Shown here one piece after another: positions 42,379 through 50,560 of a stretch of 64,000 bases of DNA; positions within the stretch are counted from its first letter, which is position 1, and each line of letters starts with the position of its first letter. Both the position numbers and the translations under genes were made by a program. The DNA lies in the NCBI RefSeq assembly GCF_008365295.1, contig NZ_CP043505.1, positions 868,001-932,000 on the forward strand, read 5' to 3'. This stretch comes from Agromyces intestinalis. GTDB taxonomy: Bacteria; Actinomycetota; Actinomycetes; Actinomycetales; Microbacteriaceae. The notes beneath the pieces are model-generated. The model did not search any database. It was not told the DNA's origin and saw only the letters and a list, made by a program, of their open reading frames with translations.

Positions 42379-42383
42379 GGTCA

Positions 42384-42450
42384 GCGGTCAGCGCTGCTCA
42401 GCGGTCGGCGCTGCTCAGCGGTCGGCGCTGCTCAGCGGTCGGCGCTGCTG
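42384..42450. repeat. 17-bp tandem array
   Basis: Nearly four copies of GCGGTCGGCGCTGCTCA (first copy with one change, last partial) end at the C-terminus of the small membrane protein gene. The stop codon of that gene lies inside the third unit. Confidence 0.8.
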
Positions 42451-42669: not shown

Positions 42670-43554
42670 TCACCGCGCCTCGAGATCGGGGTCGTCGGCA
42701 GTGAACACGTAGTCGCCGCGCGCATCGAGCTCGGGTCGCAGCCCGCCGGCGGACGCCGCCGCGAACGCGACCCGGCTGCGCTCGCGCAACTCGCGCGCGA
42801 TGTCGGGCGCGCCCTCGCGCACCGCCTCGAAGTCGGCGACGAGCGCGAGTCCCTCACCGTCGGCATGCCACGCCGGCTGGGGCCGACGCTCGAGCGCCCG
42901 CCGCACGCGCGGCGAGTCGAGCCGCCAGCGCACCTCGAACCGATCGCTGCGGTCGTCGAGGTTGATCGCGTCGCGCAGCTCGCCGTAGAAGTCGGGCAGA
43001 TAGGCGCCGACCTCGGCCCCGAGCCGGACCAGGTTCATGCGGGCGTTGCGCCGGATGAGCGGATCGTACGTCCAACGGATCTCGTCGACGCCGTGCGCGA
43101 GGCACACCGCTCGCTGCCGCAGCTTCAGCGCGACGCCGACACCCCGGCCCCGGTGGGCCGGGTCGACGGCGTTCATGTGGGAGTGCAGGTGGATGCCTCC
43201 GGCCCAGCCGAGGAACCCGAACGCGGCCCCGACGATCGGCCCGGATGCGTCGGCCGACGCCGGCGGCGGTGCATCCCGCCCCGAAGCATCCGTGCCCGGT
43301 GCATCCCGCCCCGAAGCATCCGTGCCCGGCGTCGCCGGAACCGCGACCAGCACCGTCGCACCCGCGTATCCGGCCGCCCGCAGCAGCGACCGGTCGGGCC
43401 CGGTGCCCGCGCCCCAGGTGGCCTCGAACCGGGCGATCACCGCATCGAGCTCATCGGCGCGCGCGGCCCTGGTGACGACGCCCACGGTCGCGTCCTCGGC
43501 ATCCGCTGCCGCCGCAGCCGCGCCCGACGTCGAGGAGTCGGTCGGGTCGATCAT
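42670..43554 (-). CDS. GNAT family acetyltransferase
   Basis: This 294-residue protein has the acetyl-CoA motif AVDPAHRGRGVGVALKLRQRAVCLAHG (about 132-158) and IRWTYDPLIRRNARMNLVRLGAEVGAYLPDFYG. The latter is a signature of a GNAT subgroup often found beside amidohydrolases or saccharopine dehydrogenase-like genes. A duplicated GTDASGRDAP insert (about residues 76-95) comes from a 30-bp tandem repeat. Its ATG overlaps the upstream saccharopine dehydrogenase stop codon, so the two act together; the substrate is unknown. Confidence 0.85.
   Translation of the reverse strand: MIDPTDSSTSGAAAAAADAEDATVGVVTRAARADELDAVIARFEATWGAGTGPDRSLLRAAGYAGATVLVAVPATPGTDASGRDAPGTDASGRDAPPPASADASGPIVGAAFGFLGWAGGIHLHSHMNAVDPAHRGRGVGVALKLRQRAVCLAHGVDEIRWTYDPLIRRNARMNLVRLGAEVGAYLPDFYGELRDAINLDDRSDRFEVRWRLDSPRVRRALERRPQPAWHADGEGLALVADFEAVREGAPDIARELRERSRVAFAAASAGGLRPELDARGDYVFTADDPDLEAR
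43268..43327. repeat. 30-bp tandem duplication inside the GNAT gene
   Basis: Two identical 30-bp units, each with a GCATCCG element, add ten residues twice in a loop before the acetyl-CoA site. Confidence 0.8.
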
Positions 43555-44840
43555 GCGGCGAGACGATCCTGCATGCCCCAGGCCTGCCCGTAGCCGCCCT
43601 CGTCCTCAGGACGGGCCATCAGCTCGAGGAACGGCACCGCGTCGAACGCCTCGGGGCCGAGCACGCCGCTGCCCGCCCACGTGCCCGACGCGAGCAGCTC
43701 GAGCGCGATCACGGGGTTGAGGGCCGTCTGCCAGACGACGCACTGGGCCTCGTACTCGCGCATCGTCCACTCGTTGTCGCTCACGTGGTACAGGTACACC
43801 TCGCGCGGCGCGCCCTCGCGGCCGGTGCCGGTCACCCACAACCCCGCGCACGTCTTGCCGGTCATTCGAGGGCCGATCGTGGCCGGATCGGGCAGGGCTG
43901 CCGCGACCACATCGCGCGGCGCGACCTCGACCGGGCCGGACACGCCGGCTGCGGCGCCGCGCACCCGGATCGGGGTCGTCGAGTCGAGGCCCAGCAGGTG
44001 CAGCGTCCGCAGCACGCCGATGAACTCCTCGCCGAGGCCGTACTTGAACGTCACCCGCTTCGCGTCGACCCAGCGCGGCATGAGCAGCACCTCCTCGTGC
44101 TCGACGTTCACGCACTCGACCGGGCCGATGCCTTCGGGGAACTCGAACACCTCGGGCTCGCTGAACGGCGGCGTCGTATACCAACCCGTGTTCTCTTCCC
44201 AGATCACGGGTGGGTTCAGGCACTCCTCGATCGTCGTCCAGATGCTGAACGACGGCGCGAAGATCTCGTTGCCGGCCTCGTCGCGCACCACGAGGTTCGC
44301 GCCGTCACGGGTGCCGAGCTCGTCGATCTCGCTGAACAGACGGTCGGCGGCGTAGCGGGCGAACACGTCGCTGAGCCCCGGCTCCACCCCCATGCCGACG
44401 AGCGCGAGCCTGCCCGCCTGCTCCCAGTCGCTCGCCTGCGCGAACTGGTCGTCGCCGAGCTTCACACCCGTCTGCGCGTACGGGTCGGTCGGGTGCGGCT
44501 CGGACAGGCTCATCGCCATGTCGAGATAGTCGGCTCCGGCGGCGAGCGCGCCCGCGAACACGGATGGCACGAACTTCGGCTCGACCGCGTTCATCACGTG
44601 CGTGGTGTCGTGCGCGCGGGCGACCTCGGCGACGCGCTCGGGATCGCTCGCGTCGACCTGCGCCGTGGCGAACCGTGCGGCGAGGTCGTCACCGTGCTTC
44701 GCGCGGATCCACTCGACGGTGCGCTGTGCCCGTGCCTCGTCGTAGTCGCTCACGACGAGCAGTTCGAAGAAGTCGCGCCGCGCGGCGATCTTGGCGATGG
44801 CGTCGCCGACCCCTCCGGCGCCGATGAGGAGGATGCGCAT
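43551..44840 (-). CDS. Saccharopine dehydrogenase-family oxidoreductase
   Basis: This 429-residue protein begins with a Rossmann NAD(P) motif MRILLIGAGGVGDAIAKIAA and contains HVMNAVEPKFVPSVFAGALAAGADYLDMAMSL and GMGVEPGLSDVFARYAA, as in saccharopine dehydrogenase and carboxynorspermidine synthase relatives. Actinobacteria rarely use the saccharopine route, so another imine reduction is plausible. The gene is leaderless (TAGCGT, six bases) and overlaps the GNAT gene. The pair may modify an amino acid or polyamine; this is inference. Confidence 0.83.
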   Translation of the reverse strand: MRILLIGAGGVGDAIAKIAARRDFFELLVVSDYDEARAQRTVEWIRAKHGDDLAARFATAQVDASDPERVAEVARAHDTTHVMNAVEPKFVPSVFAGALAAGADYLDMAMSLSEPHPTDPYAQTGVKLGDDQFAQASDWEQAGRLALVGMGVEPGLSDVFARYAADRLFSEIDELGTRDGANLVVRDEAGNEIFAPSFSIWTTIEECLNPPVIWEENTGWYTTPPFSEPEVFEFPEGIGPVECVNVEHEEVLLMPRWVDAKRVTFKYGLGEEFIGVLRTLHLLGLDSTTPIRVRGAAAGVSGPVEVAPRDVVAAALPDPATIGPRMTGKTCAGLWVTGTGREGAPREVYLYHVSDNEWTMREYEAQCVVWQTALNPVIALELLASGTWAGSGVLGPEAFDAVPFLELMARPEDEGGYGQAWGMQDRLAA

Positions 44841-44852: not shown

Positions 44853-44886
44853 GCGCGCCCCACGGCATCCGTCATGCCCGCTCGTC

Positions 44887-45034
44887 CGCGCTCCCCCGTC
44901 CCCGTCCCGCGCTCCCCCGTCCCCTCCCGCGCTCCCCCGTCCCCTCCCGCGTTCCCCGTCCCCTCCCGCGTTCCCCGTCCCCTCCCGCGTTCCCCGTCCC
45001 CTCCCGCGCTCCCCGTCCCCTCCCGCGCTCCCCG
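44887..45034. repeat. C/T-rich 19-20-bp tandem array
   Basis: About seven and a half copies of CGCGCTCCCCGTCCCCTCC (variants with CGCGTT and an extra C) fill the DNA up to palindrome A. The plus strand is almost purely C and T apart from the CG steps. Confidence 0.9.
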
Positions 45035-45121
45035 TTCAGCGGATCAGGAATTCCTGCGGGGGTGGCGGCGTGTCGTGGCGTGACACACCGGCACCCCTCC
45101 CGTTTTTCCTGATCCGCTGAA
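45035..45121. repeat. Nested palindrome, copy A (GGATCAGGAATTCCTG family)
   Basis: The outer stem TTCAGCGGATCAGGAA (45035-45050) pairs perfectly with 45106-45121. Inside, CGGCGTGTCG and TGACACACCG pair around a 5-base loop. CAGGAATTCCTG is itself a palindrome at the left junction, and TTTTT precedes the right arm. It lies 47 bases past the DUF559 stop codon. Compare copies B (46237) and C (48918). Confidence 0.85.
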
Positions 45122-45168
45122 GGGGCGCAGCAGGGAAGGGTGCAGCAGGGATCTGGGCGCGGGAAGCG

Positions 45169-46143
45169 TCAGCGGGGGCGGCCGGCCTTGGCGTCGGCGA
45201 CGGTGCGCGCAACGGCGGCGGCGATCATGGGCCAGTCGTCGATGACGCGCACGGCCGCCACTCTGATCACCGGCATGCCGAATGCCTGCGCGATGAGGGT
45301 GCGATCGCGATCGGCGACGAACTGCTGCCGCGTGCGGTGGTGCGCCCACCCGTCGATCTCGTAGAGCACCACGCCGTCGATGATGCCGTCGAAACGGCCG
45401 TGGCCGGCGAGCTGGAACTGCGGCTGCACGTCGAACCCGCCCGCGCGGAGCCGTCGCACGAACAGCGTCTCGACCCCCGACTCGAGACGCCCGCAGAGCT
45501 CGTCGACCCGAACCCCCGTTCGTCGCGGAGCATCCGCGATGATGCGCTCGACCTCGCCGCGGCGGAGCATCCGCTCGTGGATCGCGGAGTCGACGACCGC
45601 CTGCGCGTGCTCGGAGTCGAGGCAGCGCACGGCCTCCGCGAGCGCGGTGCGCGGTGAGACGAGCCAGTCGAGCGACCCCGTGGCATCCGCCTCGAGCCCC
45701 CAGTGCACCGTTGCGGGCGCTGTCGGATCGCTCAGCCGGATCTCGCGTCGCTGCCGGTCGGGCAGACGCGGATGCCACACGGCCGGCGCCGGAACGAATG
45801 CGGTCGGGTTCAGCCCGTCGATCGCCCGCCGCGACGCGTTGCGGGCGAGATGCACGTGCAAGCCGTCGCCGATGCCTGCCCACACGCCGTAGCGGGCGAG
45901 CGCCGACGTGCATCCGAGGCGGCCGCCGATCGCGACGGCCCGCCGCTGCTCGGCGTCGGCGGCGGGCGTCGCGTACCAGCCCGGCTTGAGCCGGATCAGC
46001 GATCCGCCACGAACCTCGGCACGGAGGTCGGCATCACGGACGCCGTAACGCCGCAACCGGCTGATGTGCGCCACCTCGCCGAGACGGCCGAGGACGAAAT
46101 GCGGGTCGAGCATCCGATGAGCGTGCCAGCCGGTCATCGTCAT
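45169..46143 (-). CDS. DUF559 (Vsr-like PD-(D/E)XK) nuclease with AbiEi-like N-terminus
   Basis: This protein of about 324 residues has an N-terminal winged-helix-like region (GRLGEVAHISRLRRYGVRDADLRAEVRGGSLIRLKPGWYA, residues 18-57), as in the AbiEi_4 antitoxin-type domain. The C-terminus is a DUF559 nuclease fold: Glu221/Glu225 (ESGVE), Asp252 (GRFDGII), Glu262 and Asp264 (LYEIDGWAHH), then FVADRDRTLIAQAFGMPVIRV. All expected acidic residues are present, so it is probably active. Start choice is uncertain (ATG 46143, ATG 46113 or GTG 46218). It is bracketed by palindromes A and B and by mirrored C- and G-rich arrays, unlike its neighbours. Confidence 0.8.
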   Translation of the reverse strand: MTMTGWHAHRMLDPHFVLGRLGEVAHISRLRRYGVRDADLRAEVRGGSLIRLKPGWYATPAADAEQRRAVAIGGRLGCTSALARYGVWAGIGDGLHVHLARNASRRAIDGLNPTAFVPAPAVWHPRLPDRQRREIRLSDPTAPATVHWGLEADATGSLDWLVSPRTALAEAVRCLDSEHAQAVVDSAIHERMLRRGEVERIIADAPRRTGVRVDELCGRLESGVETLFVRRLRAGGFDVQPQFQLAGHGRFDGIIDGVVLYEIDGWAHHRTRQQFVADRDRTLIAQAFGMPVIRVAAVRVIDDWPMIAAAVARTVADAKAGRPR

Positions 46144-46236
46144 GCCCGGGCCGGCACGGGCGACCTGGGGCCGATCATGCCGCCGACGCGCCTGTGGAGG
46201 AGCGCTCAGGGTGGTCACCGCCCGCGCCGTACCTTC

Positions 46237-46317
46237 ACCGGATCAGGAATTCCTGCGGGGTTGTCGGTGTGTCGTGACCCGACACGCCGGCACCACCGCC
46301 GTTTTTCCTGATTCGCG
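46237..46317. repeat. Nested palindrome, copy B
   Basis: GGATCAGGAATTCCTGCGG starts the element and TTTTTCCTGATTC ends it; the outer arms have one mismatch. The inner stem CGGTGTGTCG/CGACACGCCG has a 5-base loop TGACC. It is in the same orientation as copy A and lies upstream of the DUF559 gene. Confidence 0.85.
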
Positions 46318-46450
46318 GAGGGGGGCGCGAGGCGGGGGGGGGCGGGGCGGGGGCGGGGGATGGGGAGCGGGGGGTGGGGTGCGTGGGGTAGGGAGCGTGG
46401 GGTGGGGAGCGCGGGATGGTGCGCGGGGGATGGTGCGCGCGGGATGGTGC
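46318..46450. repeat. G-rich array with quadruplex-forming runs
   Basis: The plus strand carries many runs of four to nine G (46319-46400), then units like GCGCGGGGGATGGT. Its complement (GCGCTCCCCACCCCAC-like) resembles the array at 44887, giving an inverted arrangement around the DUF559 gene. It begins three bases past the alditol oxidase stop codon. Confidence 0.85.
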
Positions 46451-46453
46451 GCG

Positions 46454-47833
46454 CTACAGGCCGACGCGCGCCAGGAAGGGGTTCGTGAATCGGCGGTCGG
46501 GGTCGAGGCGGGCGCGCAGCGCGCGGAAGTCGTGCCAGCGGGGGTAGCGTGCGGCGAGGTCGCCGGCCGACAGCGCGAACAGCTTGCCCCAGTGCGGGCG
46601 AGCCGTGGCGGGCAGCGCCGCCTCCAGATCGGGCAGCAGCGCCTCGACGGCCGGCTGGTCGGCGACCCACGTGAAGTGCAGCGCCACCACGTCGACGCCG
46701 TACGCCATGCTCAGCCACAGGTCGTCGGCGCGCACCGTGCGCACCTCGCAGACCTGCAGCAGCGGGGCGATGCGCGGCGCGAGCCGGCGCACCGCCTCGA
46801 TCGCGGCCACCGCGTCGGCGCGCGGCACCAGGTACTCGCTCTGCAGTTCGTCACCGGCCGACGGGGTGAACTCGAGCCGGAAGTGCGGCAGCCGCTCGAA
46901 CCACGGCCCCGGTACGCCGAGCTGGGTCGTGCAGGCCTCGGTTCCGGCGCCGGGAATCGGATGCCTCGGGCCGGCAGCGGCGGTCGCACCGAGTGCCTCG
47001 GCGCCCGCCGCGGCCGACGCGATCATTGCGACGAGCGTCTCGTCGACGGGAGCGTCCTCGTCGGCCGCGGGATCGGCGAGTGGGCGGGCGGCCGTGGCAC
47101 GAGGCATCCGCTGCTTGACCCAGAGCTGGTCGGCGACGTCGGCGTTCTGCCAGGTGGTGAAGATGCTGACGCTCGTGCCGAGCGCGGTGACCGCGTCGAG
47201 GTCGGCGAGGATCGCGTCCCAGCGGGGGCCGTCGAACACGGTCTGCGCCACCTCGTATGAGGGCTCGACGTCGAGTTCGAGCGAGACGACCACGCCGAGG
47301 GCGCCGAGCGAGACGACCGCGCCCGCGAAGTCGGCGTCGCCGCGACGCAGCGTGACGATCTCGCCGTCGGCCGTCACGAGCGTGAGCGCCCGCACGGCGC
47401 TCGCGAGCGAGCCGATACCGTCGCCCGAGCCGTGGGTGCCCGTCGCGACGGCGCCCGCCACCGAGATGTGCGGAAGCGACGCGAGGTTCGCGAGGGCGAG
47501 CCCGCGCTCGTGCAGCAGCGGCGCGAGTTCGCCGTACCGTACCCCGCCCGCGACGCGCACGGCGACCGTCGACCCATCGTCGCCCGCGACCTCGGCGAAC
47601 TCGACCGGCAGGCCGTCGGTCGCGATCAGCGTGCCGTCGGTGTCGGCGAGGTCGTTGAACGAGTGCCGGCTGCCGAGCGCGCGCACCGGGCCGGGTTCGC
47701 CGAGGATGCTCCGCAGCTCGTCGACGCTCGTCGGGCGCACCAGGCGGCGCGCCGAGTACGACAGGTTGCCGGCCCAGTTGCGGCCGGGGCCGCGCCCGGC
47801 GCCGGCGCGCTCCGTGGCATCCGTCTCGGTCAT
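46454..47833 (-). CDS. Alditol/xylitol oxidase-like FAD oxidase
   Basis: This 459-residue protein is in the VAO/PCMH flavoprotein family. It has the FAD loop VRALGSRHSFNDLADTDG with His57, the residue covalently bound to FAD in alditol and xylitol oxidases, then AGAVATGTHGSGDGIGSLASAVRAL and the C-terminal ALO domain (KLFALSAGDLAARYPRWHDFRALRARLDPDRRFTNPFLAR). Related enzymes oxidise polyols or aldonolactones using oxygen. As the last gene of an arabinan operon it may act on arabitol or a released sugar; this is inference. ATG at 47833 has AGAGG six bases upstream. Confidence 0.83.
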   Translation of the reverse strand: MTETDATERAGAGRGPGRNWAGNLSYSARRLVRPTSVDELRSILGEPGPVRALGSRHSFNDLADTDGTLIATDGLPVEFAEVAGDDGSTVAVRVAGGVRYGELAPLLHERGLALANLASLPHISVAGAVATGTHGSGDGIGSLASAVRALTLVTADGEIVTLRRGDADFAGAVVSLGALGVVVSLELDVEPSYEVAQTVFDGPRWDAILADLDAVTALGTSVSIFTTWQNADVADQLWVKQRMPRATAARPLADPAADEDAPVDETLVAMIASAAAGAEALGATAAAGPRHPIPGAGTEACTTQLGVPGPWFERLPHFRLEFTPSAGDELQSEYLVPRADAVAAIEAVRRLAPRIAPLLQVCEVRTVRADDLWLSMAYGVDVVALHFTWVADQPAVEALLPDLEAALPATARPHWGKLFALSAGDLAARYPRWHDFRALRARLDPDRRFTNPFLARVGL

Positions 47834-47858
47834 GCGCATCCTCTCGCGGTCGCTGCAC

Positions 47859-48917: not shown

Positions 48918-49000
48918 TCGCGGATCAGGAAGAACGCGGGTGATGCCGGCGTGTCGGGGCGCGACACGCCGAAACCACCGCAGGAATTCCTGATCCGCGA
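48918..49000. repeat. Nested palindrome, copy C (reverse orientation)
   Basis: Outer arms TCGCGGATCAGGAA (48918-48931) and its complement (48987-49000) pair perfectly. The inner stem CGGCGTGTCG/CGACACGCCG has loop GGGCG. Read on the minus strand it begins GGATCAGGAATTCCTGCGG as in copies A and B. It sits between the GH51 and GH43 genes, against a 21-bp direct repeat at 49016-49057. Confidence 0.85.
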
Positions 49001-49015
49001 TCGCGCGGGGGCCGG

Positions 49016-49057
49016 CGAGCGGCCGGCTCAGCCGCGCGAGCGGCCGGCTCAGCCGAG
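49016..49057. repeat. 21-bp direct repeat at the GH51 stop codon
   Basis: Two copies of CGAGCGGCCGGCTCAGCCGNG lie side by side, the second reaching into the last GH51 codons. Like the other palindromes, copy C therefore borders a tandem repeat. Confidence 0.75.
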
Positions 49058-50560
49058 CGAGAGCGCGGTCCACGAGACCGGGGGCAGGGTGATCGTGAGC
49101 TCGCCGCCGGCGATCGTCGCGGTGTCGTTCGTCTGCAGCGTCACGCGCTCGCGCTCGTCGAGCGTGTTCTTCGCGTACACGTCGTCGTCGGCGATCAGGT
49201 GCGACTCGAGCACCGAGATGTCGCCGAGCGAGGCGATGTCGATCGTGAGGGTCACGGGTTCGGTCTGCGAACGGTTCACCAGGAACACGGCGGATGCTCC
49301 GCTGTCGGCGTCGTGCGTCGCGACCGCGTCGACGAGCGGTACCTCGCCGTACTCGGCGGTCGAGTAGGTCGGAGCGTCGAGCTTCAGCTGCAGCGCCTCA
49401 CCCCGGGCGAGGCGCGACGTGATCGAGAACGGGAAGAAGGTGGTCTGCCGCCATGCCGGGCCGCCGGGCTCGGTCATGATCGGCGCGATGACGTTCACGA
49501 GCTGCGCGAGCGACGCGCTGCGCACCCGGTCGGCGTGGCGCAGCAGCGAGATCATCAGGTTGCCGAACACGACCGCGTCGGCGACCGAGTACACGTCTTC
49601 GAGTAGGCGCGGCGCGACCGGCCAGTTGTCGATGCCCTCGATCTTGTCGACGCCGTGGAATCGGTCGATGTACCAGACGTTCCACTCGTCGAACGAGATG
49701 TCGATGGTCTTGGCGCTGCCCACCACCGCCTTCACGTGGTCGGCCGTCGCGACGACCGTCTCGATGAACCGGTCCATGTCGACGGCCGATGCCAGGAACG
49801 AGCCGAGGTCGCCGTTCTTCTCCTCGTAGTAGGCGTGGCACGAGATGTAGTCGACGTCGTCGTAGGTGTGGGTGAGCACGACCCGTTCCCACTCGCCGAA
49901 CGTCGGCATGTGCGCGCTCGACGAGCCGCAGACCACGAGTTCGACCGACGGGTCGAGCTGGCGCATCGCCTTCGCGGTCTGCGAGGCGATCTTGCCGTAA
50001 TCGTCCGCCGACCGGTGCCCGAGCTGCCAGGGGCCGTCCATCTCGTTGCCGAGGCACCACATCTTCACGCCGAACGCGTCGGCCTTGCCGTTGTCGATGC
50101 GCTGCTGGGACAGCGTCGTGCCGCCCGAGATGTTCGTGTACTCGAGCAGGTCGAGCGCCTCGAGCGTGCCGCGCGTGCCGAGGTTGACCGCGAGCATGAG
50201 GTCGCTGCCGACCTTCGCGAGCCAGTCGTCGAACTCGTGCAGGCCGACCTCGTTCGTCTCGGTCGAGTGCCACGCCAGGTCGAGCCGGCGCGGGCGCTCA
50301 TCACGCGGGCCGACCGAGTCCTCCCAGCGGAACCCCGACACGAAGTTGCCGCCCGGGTAGCGGATCGTCGACACCCCGAGCTCCTTCACGAGGTCGATCA
50401 CGTCCTGTCGGAACCCGTCGGGGTCGGCGGTCGGGTGGCCGGGCTCGTAGATGCCGTCGTAGACGTGACGGCCGAGGTGCTCGACGAAACCGCCGAAGAC
50501 GCGGCGGTCGATGCGGCCGACCGAGAAGTGCGGGTCGATGGTGAGGCGAGCGGTGGGCAT
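49049..50560 (-). CDS. GH51 alpha-L-arabinofuranosidase
   Basis: This 503-residue cytoplasmic enzyme releases arabinose from arabino-oligosaccharides. It shows FGGFVEHLGRHVYDGIYEPGH, STIRYPGGNFVSGFRWEDSVGP, acid/base Glu173 in WCLGNEMDGPW and nucleophile Glu292 in ISFDEWNVWY. There is no signal peptide, so it acts on sugars brought in by the adjacent ABC transporter. ATG at 50560 has GGGAG seven bases upstream. Confidence 0.96.
   Translation of the reverse strand: MPTARLTIDPHFSVGRIDRRVFGGFVEHLGRHVYDGIYEPGHPTADPDGFRQDVIDLVKELGVSTIRYPGGNFVSGFRWEDSVGPRDERPRRLDLAWHSTETNEVGLHEFDDWLAKVGSDLMLAVNLGTRGTLEALDLLEYTNISGGTTLSQQRIDNGKADAFGVKMWCLGNEMDGPWQLGHRSADDYGKIASQTAKAMRQLDPSVELVVCGSSSAHMPTFGEWERVVLTHTYDDVDYISCHAYYEEKNGDLGSFLASAVDMDRFIETVVATADHVKAVVGSAKTIDISFDEWNVWYIDRFHGVDKIEGIDNWPVAPRLLEDVYSVADAVVFGNLMISLLRHADRVRSASLAQLVNVIAPIMTEPGGPAWRQTTFFPFSITSRLARGEALQLKLDAPTYSTAEYGEVPLVDAVATHDADSGASAVFLVNRSQTEPVTLTIDIASLGDISVLESHLIADDDVYAKNTLDERERVTLQTNDTATIAGGELTITLPPVSWTALSLG

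Follow-up and report, generated by a model that had tools for sequence, protein, structure and literature searches.

RAYT transposases are thought to act on repetitive extragenic palindromic sequences (REPs) in the manner that is proposed below for a nuclease. According to the passages of the reports cited here, RAYT genes are always flanked by two REPs, the cognate REPs being abundant where the gene is present (PMC2817692), and they evolve faster than their neighbors, with the letters of the REP tied to the gene (PMC2817692, PMC8266576); REPs have a length of 20-40 bp and carry a GTAG- or CGTC-type tag (PMC3733652). The present study concerns a nuclease gene and two palindromic elements, designated A and B, in a stretch of 64,000 nucleotides from Agromyces intestinalis (the window), which corresponds to positions 868001-932000 of a 3.80-Mb single-contig genome (G000, the own genome) of this genus in the Microbacteriaceae. 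An earlier note on this DNA had described, between the saccharopine dehydrogenase (SDH) and ALO genes, a C/T array, palindrome A, a minus-strand gene, palindrome B in the same orientation and a G-rich array, and all of these were found as described, in that order. We regard it as rather probable that the locus belongs to a family of nuclease-palindrome units with a single gene each, in which a protein with an AbiEi-like DNA-binding domain at its N-terminus and a Vsr-like nuclease domain at its C-terminus may act on its own palindromes in a REP/RAYT-like manner.

Palindromic elements paired with the nuclease gene

An ortholog was found at E ≤ 1e-30 in 16 of the 60 Agromyces genomes (own genome included), and a covariance model trained on 28 flanking elements of these orthologs and of one paralog placed an element at each side of every one of the 16. 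The orthologs are adjoined by 36 elements, 10 of which lie outside the training set of the model. The flanking copies do not follow a consistent relative orientation in the 16 pairs, A and B of the window being direct.

The pairing was also observed in the wider family, in which 169 of the 299 Microbacteriaceae genomes searched hold a homolog at E ≤ 1e-30. The paired test took two palindromes whose spans agreed to within 1 bp (the equal-span rule; spans of 54-97 bp were searched), one within 400 bp on each side of the gene, and compared their four 12-nt arms, with a threshold score of at least 60. It was applied to 61 loci, nearly all from Microbacteriaceae, namely 21 from Agromyces including paralogs and 40 among the matches listed family-wide; these 40 were made up of the top 20 from outside Agromyces and a manual selection of 20 weaker ones, including L234, an Agromyces paralog. 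The threshold was reached at 38 of the 61 homolog loci, in 1.24% of 3,222 mismatched sides and at one of 69 control genes (39 window genes and 30 SDH genes, the latter being mutual orthologs and in some cases located beside the nuclease). The lone control was the SDH locus L175 (score 64), an artefact due to windows that overlap on a short contig, and its removal leaves 0 of 68; another SDH control, L167, had a score of 58. At thresholds of 54, 57, 60 and 63, the homolog loci numbered 47, 42, 38 and 27 of 61, against null rates of 7.5, 2.7, 1.2 and 0.4%. Complete identity of the four arms was seen in seven loci (L066, L067, L214, L217, L227, L236 and L238), and the five homologs of the own genome have pairs with differing arms, scoring 66, 60, 69, 63 and 58, the last being below the threshold. 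Furthermore, two 67-bp palindromes that were found blind by pattern in G009, another species, enclose a homolog (E 5.7e-44 among the open reading frames (ORFs) of the locus), with a pair score of 68. The check suggested in the earlier note, namely whether DUF559-type genes elsewhere are flanked by such palindromes, was thus borne out, and chance in GC-rich DNA was rejected by the control patterns, mismatched pairs and control genes. Pairing is general across the family, and high-copy dispersal was seen in Agromyces only.

The arms of dispersed copies were compared with those beside the nuclease in 14 of the 16 ortholog genomes (G051 and G074 were left out), using 57 dispersed elements from 13 genomes and nine from the own genome, or 66 in all. 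Elements on a contig other than that of the nuclease, or at a distance of over 20 kb from it, were regarded as dispersed; at most five of those listed were fetched per genome, and the nine of the own genome were picked by exact TCAGGAA ends. The 14-nt arms of the dispersed copies agreed at 11.6 of 14 positions with the arms beside the nuclease in the same genome, versus 8.7 (sd 0.41) on permutation (0 of 20,000 permutations), and the own genome ranked first in 10 of the 14. Dispersed copies with cognate arms are thus present in Agromyces, and arms differ by gene as well as by genome; one dispersed copy at 2541 kb (L157) bears the arms of the 401-kb paralog of the own genome. The correlation between arm and protein similarity, to which shared ancestry contributes, was weak family-wide (rho 0.23, n=38) and reached rho 0.50 within Agromyces (n=12).

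Most of the orthologs adjoin SDH or its neighbor GNAT, and that of G040 adjoins ALO, its far side being occupied by other genes. Since the gene mostly keeps the same neighbors, its residence is mainly vertical. In the ten genomes with both proteins, identity was 44-56% for the nuclease versus 84-89% for SDH; ALO is also divergent (53-69%), yet less so than the nuclease in the five genomes that have both.

Regarding the protein itself, Pfam scans of the 17 members of an alignment (E ≤ 1) matched AbiEi_4 in 14 (best E 5.6e-11), MTES_1575 in 15 (best E 3.9e-6) and DUF559 in four (best E 4.9e-7); beyond the MTES_1575, DUF559 and AbiEi families, the matches were scattered ones in single members. 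The gene was previously considered to be a DUF559 gene with an intact acidic active site. The family assignment did not hold for the window protein by the curated cut-offs of Pfam, which it missed for DUF559 (11.8 vs 20.6 bits) as well as for MTES_1575 (16.9-19.2 vs 38.2 bits), whereas the acidic residues are conserved. E215, D242, D254, H259, D268 and R271 are invariant in the 17 rows and E252 is nearly so (numbering of the 314-aa form); we take these to be the catalytic positions of the Vsr/PD-(D/E)XK pattern. The conserved acidic pattern of this nuclease type is present, and nuclease activity is predicted. PDB 3hrl, an endonuclease-like protein, gave a weak profile match (E 0.005), as did the AbiEi models of PADLOC (E 0.011). 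Y1_Tnp, the HUH/Y1 family of Pfam, was not matched by the window protein up to E 10 or by the 17 members up to E 1. The ATG at 46113 is the probable start codon, which gives 314 aa and lies approximately where the relatives begin.

Copies, inner motif and borders of the element

Elements A and B are direct copies with 85% identity over 91 nt (E 6.8e-23 in the genome). Element A consists of arms GCGGATCAGGAA, an inner motif CGGCGTGTCG at 45066-45075 and the core TCAGGAA...TTCCTGA at 45044-45112. The pattern TCAGGAA-N50..75-TTCCTGA occurs at 13 places in the own genome and its reversed control pattern at none. Twelve of these places are elements with a core of 69 bp (68 bp in one) and the inner CGACACGCCG/CGGCGTGTCG motif, exact or slightly altered; the thirteenth (83 bp) lacks the inner motif and appears to be unrelated. 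The palindromes are not confined to this gene, a third copy, C, being present in the window and at least 12 copies of the 81-bp element in the own genome. The features of the locus are listed in the table.

Table. Features in and around the nuclease-palindrome unit (window positions)
Feature	Position	Strand	Basis
SDH gene	43551-44840	minus	domain search
C/T-rich tandem array, period 19, 7.7 copies, end 3 bp from element A	44886-45035		TRF, score 243
Element A, 81-bp palindromic unit, 3' of nuclease gene	45038-45118		model 76.9 bits, E 1.2e-16
Short G-rich tandem array, 15 bp x 1.9, start 5 bp from element A	45123-45151		TRF
Nuclease gene, 349-aa ORF from GTG	45169-46218	minus	AbiEi_4-like N-terminus, Vsr-like PD-(D/E)XK C-terminus (domains mostly from relatives)
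Element B, 5' of nuclease gene, same orientation as A	46237-46317		model 69.1 bits, E 1.1e-14
G-rich tandem arrays adjoining element B	46315-46447		TRF
ALO gene	46454-47839	minus	domain search
Element C, dispersed copy with a glycosidase-like gene on either side (names by eye)	48919-48999		model 80.6 bits
Tandem array, 2.5 copies of 21 bp, at a distance of 12 bp from element C	49011-49061		TRF

The letters between the arm and the inner motif are variable and pair poorly in 11 elements of the own genome, and a simple perfect hairpin was rejected on this basis. As single-stranded DNA, A, B, C and two other elements fold well (z -4.6 to -7.8). The register of the inner motif is fixed in 97 of 102 elements, in either orientation, and among the 90 elements with both halves scorable, 57 have the motifs inverted (50 in-in and 7 out-out) and 33 direct. 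A putative double-stranded binding site would account for these registers and orientations no less well than a hairpin would. A known RNA family was also rejected, with no match near the gathering score.

The outer arms vary by genome and include TCAGGAA, GCAGGAA, GGATGAGGCAG, GGATGCTGCAG and others. In alignment A2, a trimmed replacement of A1 with elements picked for at least 10 of 14 arm pairs and at least 14 of 20 inner matches, 12 of the 13 arm pairs changed on both sides; because the elements were preselected on pairing, the pairing percentage is partly circular, the variety of pair types less so. Two genomes without a close ortholog carry elements of 69-70 bp with TCAGGAA/TTCCTGA ends, other flanks (CACAACTCAGGAA) and a different interior (L026 and L029 in G024; L048 in G065). 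Furthermore, 65 exact elements were found by pattern in G064, several of which recur at a spacing of approximately 150-310 bp, as in longer tandem duplications.

Tandem arrays adjoin nine of the 12 own-genome elements, versus 20 of 876 background positions (p 2e-12), and six of 34 nuclease-flanking elements in other Agromyces, versus 54 of 3,050 (p 4e-5). In the sequence outside 103 Agromyces elements, pyrimidines predominate on the left and purines on the right. The mirrored arrays of the window, pointed out in the earlier note, are not a special arrangement; since arrays adjoin elements generally, with this left/right skew, they look like by-products of the element borders. Beside the nuclease gene of G014, a long G-run faces a long C-run (L065:1346-1402).

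One lineage-specific insertion in a coding sequence was observed. In G000 (L019:1495-1575, near 2568857) and G056, an element lies in frame within a gene for an acyl-CoA dehydrogenase (by eye), whereas 28 of the 30 loci fetched lack the peptide that it encodes; the interval is 165 nt in G000 vs 75 nt in G058 and G060. The loop concerned is variable, with other insertions in some genomes (e.g. G046), and the borders of the insertion and a target-site duplication are therefore not exactly definable. Losses that run through elements were seen in G056, whose SDH is the most similar one. One of its elements consists of the left arm only and another lacks the right half; element C is absent there, as a gain in one genome or a loss in the other. 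The unit and both of its elements are gone save for approximately 46 bp of coding sequence, a scrap which indicates that the unit was lost by deletion.

Two further repeats were noted in the window. A 17-bp tandem repeat, TCAGCGGTCGGCGCTGC x 4.1 with 98% matches, occupies 42381-42449 between phosphotransferase-like and GNAT-like genes (by eye), and two perfect 30-bp copies at 43267-43329, within the GNAT-like ORF (by eye), encode the repeated peptide GTDASGRDAP.

Proposed mechanism and alternative explanations

According to the reading that we favor, each unit would consist of a nuclease gene between two copies of a palindromic element, the arms of which are particular to that gene. The protein would recognize its own element by the arms, and the fixed register of the inner motif suggests that it may do so as a multimer. 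It would nick or cut at or beside the palindrome, which could be double-stranded, cruciform or folded into a hairpin. Through repair of this cut, the element would be copied to new places and the two flanking copies would be kept alike, and the same repair would leave tandem arrays and deletions at the borders of the element. The pairing and the specificity of the arms are observed, and binding, cutting and mobilization by the nuclease are predicted.

The strongest rival is autoregulation combined with termination, in which the AbiEi-like domain represses its own gene via the upstream copy, the downstream copy terminates transcription and the dispersed copies are further targets of this regulator. 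Antitoxins of the AbiEi type bind inverted repeats within the promoters of their own genes (PMC7319586). The register of the inner motif, fixed in either orientation, is as expected for a double-stranded binding site, and several elements lie 3' of genes (by eye). However, termination does not require that 12 or more letters be shared with the upstream copy, whereas the four arms are identical in seven loci; moreover, one copy lies within a coding sequence, and arrays and truncations occur at the element borders. Since the two-sided sharing of arms, the coding-sequence insertion and the border arrays are left unexplained, we regard this alternative as unlikely.

Homing is less likely still. 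The nuclease would cut lone elements, and the gene would be copied in by recombination via the flanking copies, lone elements being empty targets or scars. The location of the gene between two like copies, the dispersal of lone elements in Agromyces and the units of G064 and G014, which have none of the usual neighbors (SDH, GNAT and ALO) within 1.5 kb, are in line with this; however, a pair of genomes with the unit in one and a lone element in the other at the same site was not found, and G056 lost the unit together with both elements.

AbiEi and nuclease domains occur in defence proteins, and a role in defence or self/non-self recognition, in which the nuclease cuts DNA without, or with, the palindrome and the chromosomal copies mark self, is also suggested by the five different homologs in one genome and by the PADLOC AbiEi match. 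We consider it improbable, given that this match is weak, the gene mostly keeps the same neighbors, and close homologs are present in only three of 72,556 plasmid records and were not confirmed in viral contigs; the proposal of a one-gene defence island gained no support. Finally, the movement of the elements by an unrelated transposase, as in miniature inverted-repeat transposable elements (MITEs), with the nuclease gene between two of them by coincidence, would account for differences in element presence between genomes and for the many elements in some genomes without a close ortholog, but is very improbable in view of the two-sided flanking of 16 of 16 orthologs, the different arms at each of the five own-genome homologs, the 0 of 68 control genes after removal of the artefact and the co-divergence of arms and protein.

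The number of model rows per genome (both strands, up to 77 scored) had a median of 33.5 with an ortholog (n=16) vs 6 without (n=44; p 9e-8), which is in favor of the nuclease-palindrome unit as we envisage it, in a comparison biased toward the ortholog genomes on which the model was trained. Several observations weigh against it. Eight ortholog-free genomes have at least 14 rows, namely G056 (53), G016 (34), G008 (32), G018 (30), G065 (19), G013 (18), G024 (17) and G043 (14). In G004, G014, G047 and G067, the best rank for the dispersed arms went to a genome other than their own. The equal-span rule of the paired test was added after a first run, which without the rule also gave 38 of 61 loci at 60 or above. 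Scores were below 60 at 23 of the 61 loci; four of these (L062-L065) are two-sided by the model, and the others may have no elements. In the own genome, the model detects elements at L034 and L036 and not at L035, L038 and L039, the interiors of which differ and the pairs of which have the arm test as their single support. The paired test found no pair at six further homologs, of which L199, from Microbacterium mitrae (Microbacteriaceae), has a one-sided model match and L200, L201 and L292-L294 are from other families.

Regarding dispersal, the Agromyces model had no match in 400-kb samples of G151 and G270, which represent two other genera, and the arm search in these samples gave two extra copies of one G151 type, others being at the chance level. 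The absence of model matches outside Agromyces is weak evidence because the model was built on Agromyces elements. G056 has 53 rows over 4.0 Mb, a density at which two to three places would be expected in each 400 kb; nine places at E ≤ 0.05 were found in the stretches fetched from G056, which were chosen near expected sites and hence do not form a random sample. The occurrence of inner motifs in direct as well as inverted orientation means that a hairpin substrate is not assured, and a target-site duplication was not seen. An empty site between the ALO and SDH genes, which the earlier note had proposed to look for, was not found in a clean form: 19 SDH loci without an adjoining nuclease gene yielded one weak model match (L170, 20.6 bits) and none that was strong, and G056 has the deletion scar described above.

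Some elements may be associated with other nucleases. In G004, four of the five dispersed elements fetched (the L143-L146 set) carry GGATAAGGAGA-like arms, unlike the flanking GGATGCTGCAG, which suggests a second nuclease in that genome. Strong elements with the arms CCTTGTGTAGGAA or CGAGACGGAGGA were noted in genomes without a close ortholog (L075 in G018, L082 in G045 and L083 in G057), and perhaps belong to other paralogs.

Comparison with known systems

We give slightly better than even chances to a class of systems independent of RAYT/REP, in which each of several paralogous nucleases with AbiEi and Vsr-like parts in a genome has a palindrome of its own, which it maintains or spreads by cutting. 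The enzymes of such systems would then include many of the AbiEi/DUF559-type proteins that abound in Microbacteriaceae, and a large protein family without an assigned function would have a testable role. It would also represent a second independent origin of the arrangement of a nuclease gene between cognate palindromes with dispersed copies, with a PD-(D/E)XK enzyme. The natural arm variants, five of them in one genome, would provide a ready specificity series for DNA reading by such proteins, and an explanation would be at hand for a class of Agromyces intergenic repeats and tandem arrays. An earlier description of a nuclease-palindrome system was not found in the open-access full text of PMC, which covers few subscription journals and no separate preprint library.

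Among known systems, MITEs resemble the present elements in being short and dispersed, with inverted ends and differences in presence between genomes; they differ in that the gene linked here encodes a PD-(D/E)XK-type protein, no search for a transposase having been made. A target-site duplication was not seen at the coding-sequence insertion, the borders of which are inexact. The type IV toxin-antitoxin AbiE system is similar with respect to the AbiEi_4 N-terminus found in 14 of the 17 members and to the binding of inverted repeats by AbiEi, as described in part of the source (PMC7319586). However, the neighbors in the window are SDH and ALO, without an adjacent AbiEii nucleotidyltransferase toxin, and the C-terminus is a nuclease domain. 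Vsr/DUF559 endonucleases, such as VsrA of Caulobacter, belong to the same nuclease superfamily, according to the relevant passage of the source (PMC12907096); the present protein differs in having a fused AbiEi-like N-terminus and flanking palindromes, the string "palindrom" having no match in the main text of that report.

The closest likeness is to the REP/RAYT system, or REPtron, to which the earlier note had compared the locus as a discrete unit, in which the nuclease may act on, or be spread or maintained by, the palindromes. This comparison is supported by the two-sided elements and their cognate arms, and the cutting and spreading are predicted. As in that system, the gene lies between two copies of a palindrome (16 of 16 orthologs and 38 of 61 homolog loci), its presence tracks the abundance of the cognate repeat in Agromyces, a relation not seen in the samples of two other genera, and the nuclease diverges faster than its neighbors SDH and ALO. 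In contrast, the enzyme is an AbiEi-like and Vsr-like PD-(D/E)XK protein without an HUH/Y1 match in Pfam; the Agromyces units are 80 bp in length with other ends, variable outer arms and a fixed inner CGACACGCCG motif; and the flanking repeats, which are inverted in REP/RAYT systems, do not have a fixed relative orientation. We conclude that the nuclease-palindrome unit, with its predicted binding and cutting, works like a REP/RAYT system but is not a member of it.

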